Shown: piece after piece, positions 7,206 through 14,368 of the stretch
Position numbering within the stretch: the first letter of the stretch is position 1
Layout of the letters: every line of letters starts with the position of its first letter
NCBI GenBank assembly: GCA_028280225.1
Contig: JANQMF010000209.1
Location: 1-38,707, forward strand
Length of the DNA stretch: 38,707 bases
Origin: Pseudomonadales bacterium
GTDB lineage: Bacteria > Pseudomonadota > Gammaproteobacteria > Pseudomonadales > Azotimanducaceae
Reading direction: 5' to 3'
Position numbers and translations under genes: made by a program
The notes under the pieces: model-generated
Told to the model about the DNA's origin: nothing
What the model saw: only the letters and a program-made list of their open reading frames with translations
The model's database searches: none

Positions 7206-8126
7206 TCAACCTCGGGGATGATGCGTCTCAACAAGAGACTTTAGCCGATGATTGGCAACATGGGTATAGATCTGGGTGGTGGATAAGTCACTGTGTCCCA
7301 ACATCATTTGTACCGCGCGTAAATCCGCACCATTATCCACCAAATGCGTGGCAAAGGCATGGCGCAGGGTGTGAGGAGATATATCCTGACTGATCCCAGC
7401 CCCGGCGGCATACCGTTTGACCGCGTACCAGAAAGTTTGCCGGGTCATCTGCCGGCCGCGCCGGCTGGGAAACAATACCGCCCCTTCGCCGGCCAATAAT
7501 TCACTTCGTCCAGTCTCAACAAACTTTACCAGCCATTGAATGGCGCTCTCCCCCATGGGTACCAGCCGCTCCTTATTCCCCTTGCCAACAACCCGGACCA
7601 CACCCTGCCGCAGGTTAACCTGGTTCACCTGCAAACTGATAAGTTCACTTATACGCAATCCACTTGCATATAAAAGTTCCAGCATCGCCCGATCCCGCAG
7701 CCCTATGGCAGTGTCTGTATCCGGCGCCTGCAACAGGTCCTCAACCTGCTCGGGACTCATGGATTTAGGCAACGGGCGGCCCAGCTTCGGCTGATCCAGT
7801 TGAGCAGTGGGGTCCTCCTCAATATGGCCATGGAGCACCTGGTGACGATAAAAGCCACGTAATGCACTCAACCAGCGCGCGGCGCTGCGCGCCCCAACCC
7901 CAGCTTCAAAGCGATGGGACAAACACTCGGTCAAGTCGAGGTAAGTGGCCTGGCTGAGGGTTTTGCCCCGGCTCGCCAGCCATGCCGATGCCTGGCTCAG
8001 ATCCCGCCGGTAAGCCTGCAACGTATTTTCGCTGAGCCCGCGCTCAAGCCACAATGCGTCCAGATAACGCTGGATATCGGGATTGGTGTTCAACATCGTC
8101 AGTGTCAGCCGGTCACAATGCGTCAC
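7206..8126 (-). CDS. xerD: Site-specific tyrosine recombinase XerD
   Basis: Works with XerC at dif to resolve chromosome dimers under FtsK control. The 306-residue protein has the N-terminal SAM-like core-binding domain and a catalytic domain with all active-site residues: Arg158 (GLRISEL), Lys182 (GKGNKER), His252 and Arg255 (HTLRH), His278 (LGHSDLS) and Tyr287 (IYTHV). The start is GTG 8126, preceded at seven bases by GAGG; an internal ATG at 8096 lacks a ribosome site. Its position next to dsbC supports XerD rather than XerC or an integrase. It faces away from the putative small RNA upstream. Confidence 0.96.
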   Translation of the reverse strand: MTHCDRLTLTMLNTNPDIQRYLDALWLERGLSENTLQAYRRDLSQASAWLASRGKTLSQATYLDLTECLSHRFEAGVGARSAARWLSALRGFYRHQVLHGHIEEDPTAQLDQPKLGRPLPKSMSPEQVEDLLQAPDTDTAIGLRDRAMLELLYASGLRISELISLQVNQVNLRQGVVRVVGKGNKERLVPMGESAIQWLVKFVETGRSELLAGEGAVLFPSRRGRQMTRQTFWYAVKRYAAGAGISQDISPHTLRHAFATHLVDNGADLRAVQMMLGHSDLSTTQIYTHVANHRLKSLVETHHPRG

Positions 8127-8298
8127 TATTTAACCTCAATTTGCGGATGACCAAAATGCCTGGATTCTGGCCGCAATACATACAGCCGGTGCAAAAGAAG
8201 GGCATCTGACCGCCGGTGACGTGACGGTACGGCAGAGGCGGCGCATTTTGACCGCTTGTGACGGAATGCGGCAAACACAATACCCCATACCACAGCCC

Positions 8299-8320
8299 GC
8301 CGGGTGTTTTGCTGCCCGGC
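8299..8320. promoter_or_regulatory. Inverted repeat, possible activator site for the sigma-54 promoter
   Basis: GCCGGG and CCCGGC are separated by 10 bases, a perfect 6-bp dyad. It lies roughly 105-125 bp upstream of the predicted sigma-54 start, where enhancer-binding activators usually bind. It matches no activator site I recognise (not an NtrC-type GCACC/GGTGC site and not the CbrB TGTTAC/GTAACA pair). It could equally be a hairpin in a transcript. Confidence 0.35.
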
Positions 8321-8332
8321 CCGCCCTGAATG

Positions 8333-8345
8333 TAACTTATTGATA
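8333..8345 (-). promoter_or_regulatory. IHF-binding consensus
   Basis: The minus strand reads TATCAATAAGTTA, an exact match to the IHF consensus WATCARNNNNTTR. It sits about 80-90 bp upstream of the predicted sigma-54 start and between that promoter and the upstream inverted repeat. DNA bending by IHF between activator site and promoter is standard for sigma-54 promoters. Overlapping it is an AT-rich palindrome, CTTATT-GATA-AATAAG (8336-8351). Confidence 0.5.
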
Positions 8346-8396
8346 AATAAGCACTATTTTTTAGATTTGGGGATAATTTGGAAAAATCCGCGATAT

Positions 8397-8412
8397 TGGC
8401 ACGTAGTCTGCA
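8397..8412 (+). promoter_or_regulatory. Sigma-54 (RpoN) promoter
   Basis: The plus strand reads TTGGCACG-TAGT-CTGCA, one mismatch from the RpoN consensus YTGGCACG-N4-TTGCA. The invariant GG (8398-8399) and GC (8410-8411) are exactly 10 bp apart, as required for the -24/-12 elements. Transcription should start near 8423. No protein gene follows on this strand; the stem-loop array at 8426-8557 does. On the minus strand a TATAAT hexamer (8412-8417) abuts the -12 element. Confidence 0.7.
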
Positions 8413-8422
8413 TTATATCCAG

Positions 8423-8568
8423 CAAGCTTCAGCGTAGTATGCCAACGTCCCCTCAAGGTAGCTTGAAGCACATCAGGTAATTGGACGTCTCTCCCAATTA
8501 TCTGACCAGCTTGCTAGGTTAATCCCCTCCCTCTCTCTCCCAAACCTAGCAAGCTGGCTCCCCTCTCC
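8423..8568 (+). ncRNA. Putative sigma-54-dependent small RNA with three pyrimidine-loop hairpins
   Basis: Downstream of the sigma-54 promoter three stem-loops follow almost without spacers. Hairpin 1: 8426-8431 with 8464-8469, plus inner stem 8440-8443/8457-8460, loop AACGUCCCCUCAA. Hairpin 2: 8473-8484 with 8494-8505, 12 bp, loop ACGUCUCUC. Hairpin 3: 8506-8520 with 8543-8557, 15 bp perfect, loop containing UCCCCUCCCUCUCUCUCCC. A C/U tail, CUCCCCUCUCC, follows (8558-8568). G-U pairs (8477/8501, 8441/8459) become C-A mismatches on the other strand, so the plus strand is the folded one. Loops share UCCCCUC or ACGUC(C/U)C and could pair with GA-rich ribosome-binding sites or titrate an RNA-binding protein. 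The ends are uncertain: no U-tract terminator is visible before the rplS end, with which the RNA converges. No known RNA family recognised. Confidence 0.5.
8506..8557. repeat. 15-bp perfect inverted repeat with polypyrimidine loop
   Basis: CCAGCTTGCTAGGTT (8506-8520) is exactly complementary to AACCTAGCAAGCTGG (8543-8557), around a 22-base C/T-rich spacer. It is the strongest inverted repeat noticed in the window and forms hairpin 3 of the putative small RNA. It is not followed by a T run on either strand, so it is not an intrinsic terminator. Confidence 0.85.
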
Positions 8569-8642
8569 AGCCTCGTTCCAAGCCCGGTTATGGGGCCGCC
8601 AGGACTTTGGTATGCGCTAAGTCACCGCGTAGAGTGGCAGAG

Positions 8643-8665
8643 CTGGGCCTAACACTGGGCCTAAC
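8643..8665. repeat. Short tandem repeat at the rplS 3' end
   Basis: CTGGGCCTAAC occurs twice on the plus strand, at 8643-8653 and 8655-8665, a 12-bp period. The second copy contains the rplS stop codon. Only two units are present. It may reflect a small duplication in the 3' untranslated region. Confidence 0.6.
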
Positions 8666-9020
8666 GCTGGTTAACCTTTTCCTTGATCCTTGCCGATCGG
8701 CCGGAACGTTCGCGCAGATAGTACAGCTTGGCCTTACGTACGTCGCCGCGGCGTTTGACCTCAATGCCGGCAATCAGCGGACTGTGGGCCTGAAATGTTC
8801 GTTCCACACCAACACCGTGAGAAATTTTGCGCACGATAAATGAAGAATTCACCCCACGATTACGCTTGCTGATGACTACACCTTCATAAGCTTGCAAGCG
8901 TTCCCGGTTACCCTCTTTAACGCGCACTTGCACGCTGACGGTATCGCCGGGGCCAAATTCAGGCATATCCTGATTTATCTGGGCATTTTCCAGTTGCTCA
9001 ATAATTTTGTTTTTTCGCAT
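8661..9020 (-). CDS. rplS: 50S ribosomal protein L19
   Basis: Large-subunit protein at the 30S-50S interface. 119 residues from ATG 9020, which has GAGG six bases upstream; the frame remains open a little further but [11 protein letters not shown] is the proper N-terminus. Recognisable segments are [27 protein letters not shown] and [19 protein letters not shown]. It is the last gene of rpsP-rimM-trmD-rplS and its start lies inside the trmD end (23-bp overlap), so it is translationally coupled. The last codons overlap a tandem repeat (8643-8665). Confidence 0.98.
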
Positions 9021-9759
9021 TGCTAGCCTCATTTTCAAAGCAATCTACCAATAACTTTCGATCTTCAGCAGAAAACACCCTGCAAGTGAGCATTTCCGGC
9101 CTGCGTTCGAAAGTCCTGCGTAACGCCTCCCGGCGTCTGTAACGCTGAATCCGGCCGTGATCCCCGGACAACAGCACTGCAGGGACCGGCAAATCCACCG
9201 TATTCTCGGGGCGCGTATATTGAGGGTATTCGAGCGTTCCATCAAGATGAGATTCATCAATTATTGACCGGCTGTTGCCCAAAACACCGGGAATCTGCCG
9301 CGCAATGGCGTCTATGACCGTCATTGCAGGGAGTTCGCCGCCGCTGACCACAAAATCCCCGATGGACCACTGTTCGTCAACGTAGCGTTGGATAAACCGC
9401 TCATCAACACCTTCGTAACGTCCGCAGACAAATATAAGACTGTCTAACCCGGCACCGGCCTGGGCTGTGGTTTGATCAAATACCCGCCCCTGAGGGCTCA
9501 ACAAAACCACCGGCGCCCGGCCGGGGGCTTGACGTTGTGCTGCGGATACGGCCGCAGCCAGCGGTTCCGCCTGCATGACCATGCCTGCCCCGCCGCCAAA
9601 GGGGCGATCATCAACAGATTGGTATTTGTCCCGGGCAAAGTCCCGGGGATTGACAAACTCCAGATGCAACCGGCCTTCAGCTATACCCCGGGCCACCACC
9701 CCGGAGGTGGTCAGGCCGGCAAAAAGCTCCGGCAGGACACTGATCACGCCAATCCACAT
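8998..9759 (-). CDS. trmD: tRNA (guanine-37-N1)-methyltransferase
   Basis: SAM-dependent SPOUT enzyme that makes m1G37 in tRNAs with G36 and so prevents +1 frameshifting. The 253-residue length matches E. coli (255). Diagnostic segments are [13 protein letters not shown] at the N-terminus, [15 protein letters not shown], the knot loop [13 protein letters not shown] and [16 protein letters not shown]. It follows rimM by 18 bp and its 3' end runs 23 bp into rplS. Same operon order as E. coli. Confidence 0.98.
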
Positions 9760-13091: not shown

Positions 13092-14368
13092 TGAGCCTGG
13101 ACGATTTTCCGCTGTGGACGTTGTTTGCCAGCATCGTTTTTCTGACCGCTCTGTCCGCATTTTTTTCCGGTACCGAAACCGCCATGATGGCGCTGAATCG
13201 TTATCGGCTGAGGCATCTGGTTAAGGAAAAACACCGCGGCGCACGCAAGGCCAACCGGATGCTGCGCCGGCCCGACAGGCTGCTTGGGGTTATTCTGGTG
13301 GGGAATAACCTGGTCAACTTTACCGCCGCCACCATCGCCACGATTATCGGCATGCGGATGTTCGGCGATACCGGTGTGCTCCTGGCACCCTGGGTCCTGA
13401 CCTTTACCTTTCTGATATTTGCCGAGGTTGCCCCCAAGACGGTTGCCGCCCAACGCCAGGAAGGCTGGGCTTTTTCAGCGGTATTTGCCCTGGAGCCGTT
13501 GCAGAAGCTTTTTTCGCCCGCGGTTGTGGTCGTGAACTGGTTGAGCAATGCCCTGGTACGTCCCTTTGTACCGCATGCGGACGACCACAACGACCACCTG
13601 TCAACCGAGGAGTTGCGCACCGTGGTGAACGAAGGCGCCATGTCCGTGGGGGAACGGCAACATATGATGGTGCGCCTGCTGGATCTGGAAAGTGTCTCGG
13701 TCAATGACATCATGGTACCGCGCAGCGAAATTGTCGGGATAGATATAGACGATGAAATCGGCAACATTATCAATTTTGCGGCAAACAGCCAGCATACGCT
13801 GTTGCCGGTTTATAAAGACAATATCAACAACGTTCTGGGCATCCTGCACCTGCGGCGGCTGGCACGCCTGTTGCACGCAGATACCTTTAACAAGGCGGAT
13901 ATCATGCAACTGACCCGCGAACCCTACTATGTTCCGGAAGCCACACCGCTGGATACCCAGCTACAGAATTTTCAAAAAGAAAAACAGCGCATTGCCCTGG
14001 TGGTGGACGAGTACGGTGATGTTCAGGGGATTGTCACCCTCGAGGACATACTCGAGGAAATTGTTGGCGAATTTACCAGTGATTTTGCTTCCAGCATGCC
14101 GGAAATCCTGCCCCGGGAGGACGGATCTTACCTGATCGACGGAACTGCGGTATTGCGTGAAATAAACCGGGCCCTGCGTTGGGATCTGCCGACCAACGGC
14201 CCAAAAACCCTCAACGGCCTTGTCCTGGAACACTTAGAAACCATTCCGGAATCCAATTTGTGTCTGCAAATTTCCAACTATCAGATTGAAACATTGCAGA
14301 TCAACGACAACATGATCAAAAACATGAAAATTCGCGCCGTTGATCCCGAAGAAGAAGCCGAAAGATGA
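13091..14368 (+). CDS. yfjD: CNNM/CorB-type magnesium-cobalt transporter (YfjD family)
   Basis: 425-residue membrane protein. The N-terminal DUF21/CNNM domain (about 1-185) has transmembrane segments with the small-residue motifs FFSGTETAMMALNRYRL and GNNLVNFTAA. A CBS pair follows (about 200-335, with DIMVPRSEI and ALVVDEYGDVQGIVTLEDILEEIVGE), then a C-terminal CorC/HlyC domain. This layout is shared by YfjD/CorB proteins implicated in Mg2+ and Co2+ export. It is translationally coupled to ypjD. It ends 48 bp from the convergent leuA. Confidence 0.93.
   Translation: MSLDDFPLWTLFASIVFLTALSAFFSGTETAMMALNRYRLRHLVKEKHRGARKANRMLRRPDRLLGVILVGNNLVNFTAATIATIIGMRMFGDTGVLLAPWVLTFTFLIFAEVAPKTVAAQRQEGWAFSAVFALEPLQKLFSPAVVVVNWLSNALVRPFVPHADDHNDHLSTEELRTVVNEGAMSVGERQHMMVRLLDLESVSVNDIMVPRSEIVGIDIDDEIGNIINFAANSQHTLLPVYKDNINNVLGILHLRRLARLLHADTFNKADIMQLTREPYYVPEATPLDTQLQNFQKEKQRIALVVDEYGDVQGIVTLEDILEEIVGEFTSDFASSMPEILPREDGSYLIDGTAVLREINRALRWDLPTNGPKTLNGLVLEHLETIPESNLCLQISNYQIETLQINDNMIKNMKIRAVDPEEEAER

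Follow-up and report, generated by a model that had tools for sequence, protein, structure and literature searches.

Small RNAs (sRNAs) that depend on sigma-54 occur in the Pseudomonadales, as illustrated by CrcZ/CrcY and NrsZ of Pseudomonas; CrcZ carries CA-rich motifs that bind Hfq-Crc, and its activation is mediated by CbrB. In enterobacteria, GlmY is described as expressed from a sigma-54 promoter with the assistance of an enhancer-binding protein and IHF, the QseF/GlrR site being TGT-N12-ACA (PMC6075780). Other sRNAs are characterized by the arrangement of their loops. One example is alpha-r14/NfeR1 of rhizobia, which is described as three hairpins that expose a fixed anti-Shine-Dalgarno motif, the identical CCUCCUCCC in each hairpin, on differing stems; these motifs work redundantly, and the gene has a sigma-70 promoter with LsrB/NtrC (PMC10746234). 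Another example is sX13 of Xanthomonas, whose three stable stems carry three C-rich loops (4C/5C) that act on G-rich motifs near starts; its gene is located downstream of polA, and RpoN goes unmentioned in the paper's text (PMC3771888).

The window, i.e., the whole stretch of 38,707 nucleotides analysed here, almost certainly contains a real RNA gene that combines features of these systems. Its fold and its covariance-model homologues place it at 8423..8569 on the plus strand, which corresponds to a predicted transcript of 147 nt with a putative 3' end (128-185 nt across relatives). The gene lies between xerD (minus strand, 7206-8126), which is divergent, and rplS (minus strand, 8661-9038), which is convergent with it. 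Both flanking genes are found at 32 of the 36 loci examined; the remaining four have one of them each, at least one of these loci (L055) being a cut stretch. None of the Rfam 15 covariance models matched the window at the gathering threshold, and a search of 8128-8700 up to an E of 10 returned only three matches at chance level; likewise, no description of this RNA gene was found in the literature searched. A small protein was rejected as an alternative product, as ORFs of at least nine codons from ATG differ among copies and are absent in many, and comparison of the ORFs between copies found none that is conserved at the RNA loci. Judged by comparison, the locus is a conserved RNA gene and represents a new RNA family absent from Rfam, in agreement with the undescribed sigma-54-type RNA proposed in a preliminary description of this DNA.

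The near-consensus RpoN promoter noted in that description is present as TGGCACGTAGTCTGC at 8397..8411 on the plus strand (TGGCAC-N6-TGC, with GG-N10-GC exact), upstream of a predicted start at about 8423. Taken alone, this string is not beyond chance, since the pattern has two matches in the whole window against 0.69 expected and 17 of 100 shuffles contain at least two. The second match, CTGGCACGCCTGTTGCA at 13860-13874, lies within an ORF of 425 aa, has no mismatches to the pattern and is most likely due to chance, a caution against promoter calls made from a single genome. Among the 32 loci that were oriented and folded for comparison of their anatomy, a sigma-54 string is found at every one, always with a span of 15 bases, and the TGGCAC hexamer is kept at 29. 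A sigma-70-like match at 8340-8367 reaches chance level only. Control of the RNA gene by sigma-54 is very probable.

Upstream of the promoter, an IHF-like box, TAACTTATTGATA (8333..8345, plus strand), matches the IHF consensus at -90. In the 31 loci with enough upstream sequence, which are related to one another and were compared with shuffles preserving base composition only, this consensus occurs exactly between -111 and -27 at 9 loci (shuffle mean 0.27) and within one mismatch at 23 (shuffle mean 3.84); farther upstream there are no exact matches and one within one mismatch. Boxes of one orientation, present at 22 of the 31 loci, fall at -68/-69 (10 loci), -79 to -82 (6) and -89 to -92 (6), position classes separated by approximately one helical turn. 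No phasing as strong was obtained in 20,000 uniform draws at periods of 10, 10.5 or 11, with 5e-5 at period 13 and 0.27 at period 8; ten hand-picked representatives led to the same outcome at 10.5 and 11. Comparison of the loci leaves the sigma-54/IHF-like anatomy strongly supported.

A candidate activator site is the TGAC-N6-TGAC direct repeat at 8249..8262 (plus strand, approximately -174). Of the 31 upstream regions, 12 contain a TGAC-N6-YGAC repeat, compared with a mean of 0.24 and a maximum of 2 in shuffles. Seven of the repeats lie at -172 to -175, six of those seven in the host genus; these repeats might instead belong to the divergent xerD. By analogy with what has been published for GlmY, the RNA gene may be controlled by an enhancer-binding protein together with IHF. 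GlrR, CbrB and NifA gained no support as activators, as their consensus sites do not exceed shuffles in the 31 upstream regions. Specifically, the GlrR/QseF site, scanned in the form TGTC-N10-GACA only, versus TGT-N12-ACA in the text of PMC6075780, has no exact match and one match with one mismatch (shuffle mean 2.35), and the CbrB consensus has none within two mismatches. The NtrC consensus has no exact match in these regions and is found within two mismatches in four (shuffle mean 0.1, maximum 1), where it overlaps the xerD start at three loci (L037, L041 and L043) and is clear of it at one (L042). The window copy has no such site, and the nitrogen link suggested in the preliminary description is unsupported.

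The predicted transcript folds into three back-to-back hairpins near its start, as had been noticed from the window alone. Hairpin 1 (8426..8469) has the loop AACGUCCCCUCAA at 8444-8456; hairpin 2 (8473..8505) has the loop ACGUCUCUC at 8485-8493, which is followed by CC and is the most conserved of the three; and hairpin 3 (8506..8557), all on the plus strand, has a C/U-rich loop of 22 nt on what is a terminator stem in most relatives. The fold of 8423-8600 scores -61.9 (z = -5.86), with none of 200 shuffles as low, and across the 32 loci (60 shuffles each) the median z-score is -5.1, 30 loci falling below -3. The C/U-rich character of the loops, also pointed out previously, is conserved: pyrimidine runs of at least six are unpaired at a fraction of 0.79 versus 0.42 overall at these 32 loci, UCCCC occurs within the first 100 nt at 27 of them, and CUCUC occurs at 46-125 at all 32, where it constitutes the hairpin 3 loop in the degenerate copy L020. 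Two further claims of the preliminary description fared less well. Folding on the plus strand only, attributed to G-U pairs, is not confirmed, with scores of -50.6 (plus) versus -48.8 (minus) for the window copy and a better plus-strand fold in 22 of 32 loci. The fourth copy of the loop motif, at 8558-8568, is present in the window but is not a conserved motif, the tail bearing instead a U-run (at least three U) at 24 of 32 loci. The window copy is without a U-run, which counts against the account proposed below, and no terminator-like site was scored in it by a scan that excludes loops longer than 8.

Conservation is unevenly distributed over the hairpins. In hairpin 2 the loop carries 1.52 bits per column versus 0.75 in the stem, its core UCUCUCCC being twice as conserved as stem 2; the values are 0.89 and 0.79 for hairpin 1, and 1.04 and 1.53 for hairpin 3. 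Thus, conservation of a seed within a loop is evident in hairpin 2 and slight in hairpin 1, and the pattern is reversed in hairpin 3, where the stem equals loop 2 and exceeds its own loop. Stem 3 is similar to CCAGCTTGCTGG repeats in genome G305.

The stems also covary. Eight clear copies align across the promoter and the hairpins, and RNAalifold applied to their sequence-only alignment yields the same three hairpins. In this alignment, 11 of 36 pairs are changed on both sides, a count not reached in 500 shuffles and based on a structure derived from the same eight sequences; within the helix of hairpin 2, both-side changes affect 7 of 11 pairs. A model-fitted alignment of 26 copies (A9) shows both-side changes in 30 of 36 pairs, and 92.7% of its cells pair versus 22-43% when it is slid; it leans to its own structure and misplaces stems in at least four rows (L028, L032, L035 and L040), for which reason the count of 11 of 36 is the cleaner one. 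Conservation among relatives, on which the preliminary description had staked its reading, was therefore found for promoter, loops and covarying stems, which places the feature above chance. Additionally, stems that covary around fixed loops point to selection on the RNA itself.

As far as the cited papers describe those systems, the new RNA resembles alpha-r14/NfeR1 in its three hairpins, its unpaired pyrimidine motifs and its variable stems, a likeness that again is evident in hairpin 2 and slight in hairpin 1, with hairpin 3 showing the reverse. However, whereas each hairpin of alpha-r14/NfeR1 presents CCUCCUCCC, the window loops (AACGUCCCCUCAA, ACGUCUCUC and the longer C/U loop) are all different, and the sigma-70 promoter is replaced by one of sigma-54 type, with no Rfam match. 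It shares with sX13 the three stems with C-rich loops, but its place is between xerD and rplS at 32 of 36 loci rather than downstream of polA. Similar to GlmY/GlmZ, it would combine a sigma-54 promoter with an IHF site, as read from sequence only; unlike GlmY, it has other loops, another locus, no Rfam match and no site for the GlrR consensus. It differs from CrcZ in having C/U loops rather than CA-rich motifs, as the preliminary description had recognized, in lacking the CbrB consensus in all 31 upstream regions, and in the absence of an Rfam match. A similar loop design in distant bacteria, with no detectable kinship between the RNAs, would point to repeated emergence of RNAs of this type.

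At the DNA level, a search recovered the region from 9 of 58 genomes, the host genome included. A covariance model built from eight copies (R1) matched 10 of 40 genomes of the host genus, 23 of 150 in a sample of the host family (14 of 37 genera) and 1 of 390 in a sample of the order. A second model built from 26 copies (R2) matched 44 of 206 genomes of the family (16 of 37 genera), a count that includes the training copies, which match by construction, as well as genomes outside the training set; in the order sample it matched 6 of 390 genomes, three in the host family and three outside. The R2 matches outside the family (two in G305, one each in G153 and G197) were rejected, as they have no adjacent sigma-54 string and by eye are repeats or chance. 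The match in G197, a genome of another family, comprises a hairpin with the loop CTCTCTCCCTCTCTCCCC and a T-run (L088, 1501-1627; E 0.0056), without an adjacent sigma-54 string, and may be due to chance or represent a distant analogue. The order-wide searches scored seven candidates per genome and missed G313, found by the family-wide R2 search; because of this insensitivity, the RNA is best described as known so far from one family. Beyond the host order, the search used the hairpin-3 pattern only, which in 84,980 species genomes returned 12 contigs, all of them with titles naming MAGs of Gammaproteobacteria or Pseudomonadales. The host genus probably consists of uncultured Pseudomonadales.

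Within the host genus, rplS was found in 29 of the 30 genomes without an R1 match. Up to 520 bases downstream of it, a sigma-54 string with loops is present in two (G428 and G432). No such string was found in the other 27; pyrimidine runs occur in some of these, and one (G332) has an RNA copy on another contig. Seven R1-negative regions were read, and in one of them (L071) xerD and rplS abut. The G432 locus (L076) shows a two-hairpin version with a sigma-54 string, the loops CGTCTCTCCCC and CTCCCCCTCCCCT, and hairpin 1 missing. Loss of rpoN was rejected as the reason for absence, RpoN being present in 37 of the 40 genus genomes. Carriers differ in genome size: 9 of 10 reach at least 4.0 Mb and none of the 30 non-carriers, several of which are incomplete MAGs, exceeds 3.4 Mb (Mann-Whitney p 9e-6), a contrast that shared descent may explain. 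In G010 (L018), the RNA gene is followed by two partial copies of hairpins 2-3 in tandem (1668-1778 and 1798-1904) separated by a repeat-like GGCTAAAGCCGCTCCTACAGAGG, which suggests spread or duplication through repeat elements.

Comparison delineates the gene, its promoter, its fold, the conserved loops and the upstream boxes, and from these we infer transcription, an activator, IHF binding, pairing and repression. By analogy, a trans-acting sRNA under sigma-54/IHF control, with loops pairing to purine-rich mRNA starts, is a reasonably probable account of the whole. An enhancer-binding protein, for which the TGAC repeats may be the site, would activate the promoter, and IHF would bend the DNA at -69, -80 or -90. 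The RNA would then fold into three hairpins presenting pyrimidine seeds in open loops (UGUCCCC; GUCUCUCCC; CUCUCUCCCC..GGUCCC in many relatives), hairpin 3 probably serving also as terminator in most relatives. Translation of several mRNAs would be lowered by pairing of these loops with purine-rich stretches located at the ribosome-binding sites or close to them, a step proposed because of the analogy with alpha-r14/NfeR1 and sX13.

Such pairing was examined for loop 2 only, as the exact complement of the loop before ATG. This motif gave 93 hits versus 24 for the reversed pattern in 23 carriers (~105 Mb) and 65 versus 21 in 23 non-carriers (~75 Mb), i.e., no carrier-specific enrichment before start codons, and a motif with one mismatched base gave 71 versus 19 in the same carriers. 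At least one of the 93 carrier hits (G031:C254) is the complement of the RNA gene itself, and no single orthologue recurs among them. Hits opening ORFs of at least 100 codons are more frequent for the true motif (57/90) than for the mismatched one (25/70; p 8e-4) in carriers, and amount to 34/62 for the true motif in non-carriers (p 0.32). As hits are similar in carriers and non-carriers, GGGAGAGAC is a common start context in these genomes with or without the RNA. Many sites of this kind may be within reach of the RNA, or its partner may be a protein. A catabolic regulon of acyl-CoA dehydrogenases and enoyl-CoA hydratases, named by eye, was dropped, since non-carriers show the same flavour. 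Pairing with GA-rich ribosome-binding sites, as the preliminary description proposed, therefore stays plausible but gained no carrier-specific signal. The equal density of the loop-2 complement in non-carriers counts against pairing, and the conservation of stem 3 is not explained by simple seed pairing.

The same observations favour a possible, if rather unlikely, alternative in which the RNA is a protein decoy, its pyrimidine loops sequestering an RNA-binding protein (cold-shock-type, Hfq or other) and freeing the mRNAs of that protein. Several unlike C/U-rich open loops would suit this role, stem 3, being conserved, might be where a protein binds, and the loop-2 test found no specific mRNA signal; however, what loop 2 retains is an exact core, UCUCUCCC, and not some short degenerate motif. 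A wider proposal, also rather unlikely, is that a sigma-54/IHF switch, on some signal, releases either a broad translation damper or a protein decoy. The unlike loops would jointly cover the common purine-rich start context (GGGAGAGAC), and the RNA would act on the general initiation signal or on a pyrimidine-binding protein instead of a few mRNAs; this proposal includes the retention of the RNA mainly by large genomes in the host genus. It is improbable that the C-rich loops act on Rho or RNA turnover, or that the transcript is a by-product and transcription alone matters: loop 3 is indeed C-rich and G-poor, but the covarying stems and fixed loops point to selection on the RNA. Under a last alternative, the xerD-rplS interval would hold no separate gene but a bidirectional terminator or repeat palindrome, its sigma-54 string having arisen by chance. 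This would fit the convergent rplS, the chance occurrence of such a string elsewhere in the window and the likeness of the hairpin-3 arms to the G305 repeats, but is very improbable given that the promoter, the IHF-like box and the first two hairpins keep a similar spacing across genera.

With the sRNA gene described here, a branch of the Pseudomonadales that among the named records is seen here only as MAGs gains an RNA family with good comparative support. It would join two designs that the cited papers report separately, multi-loop pyrimidine-seed RNAs (alpha-r14 and sX13) and sigma-54/IHF-controlled RNAs (GlmY), and it lends itself to direct tests, its promoter, its seeds and a candidate activator site having been delimited.
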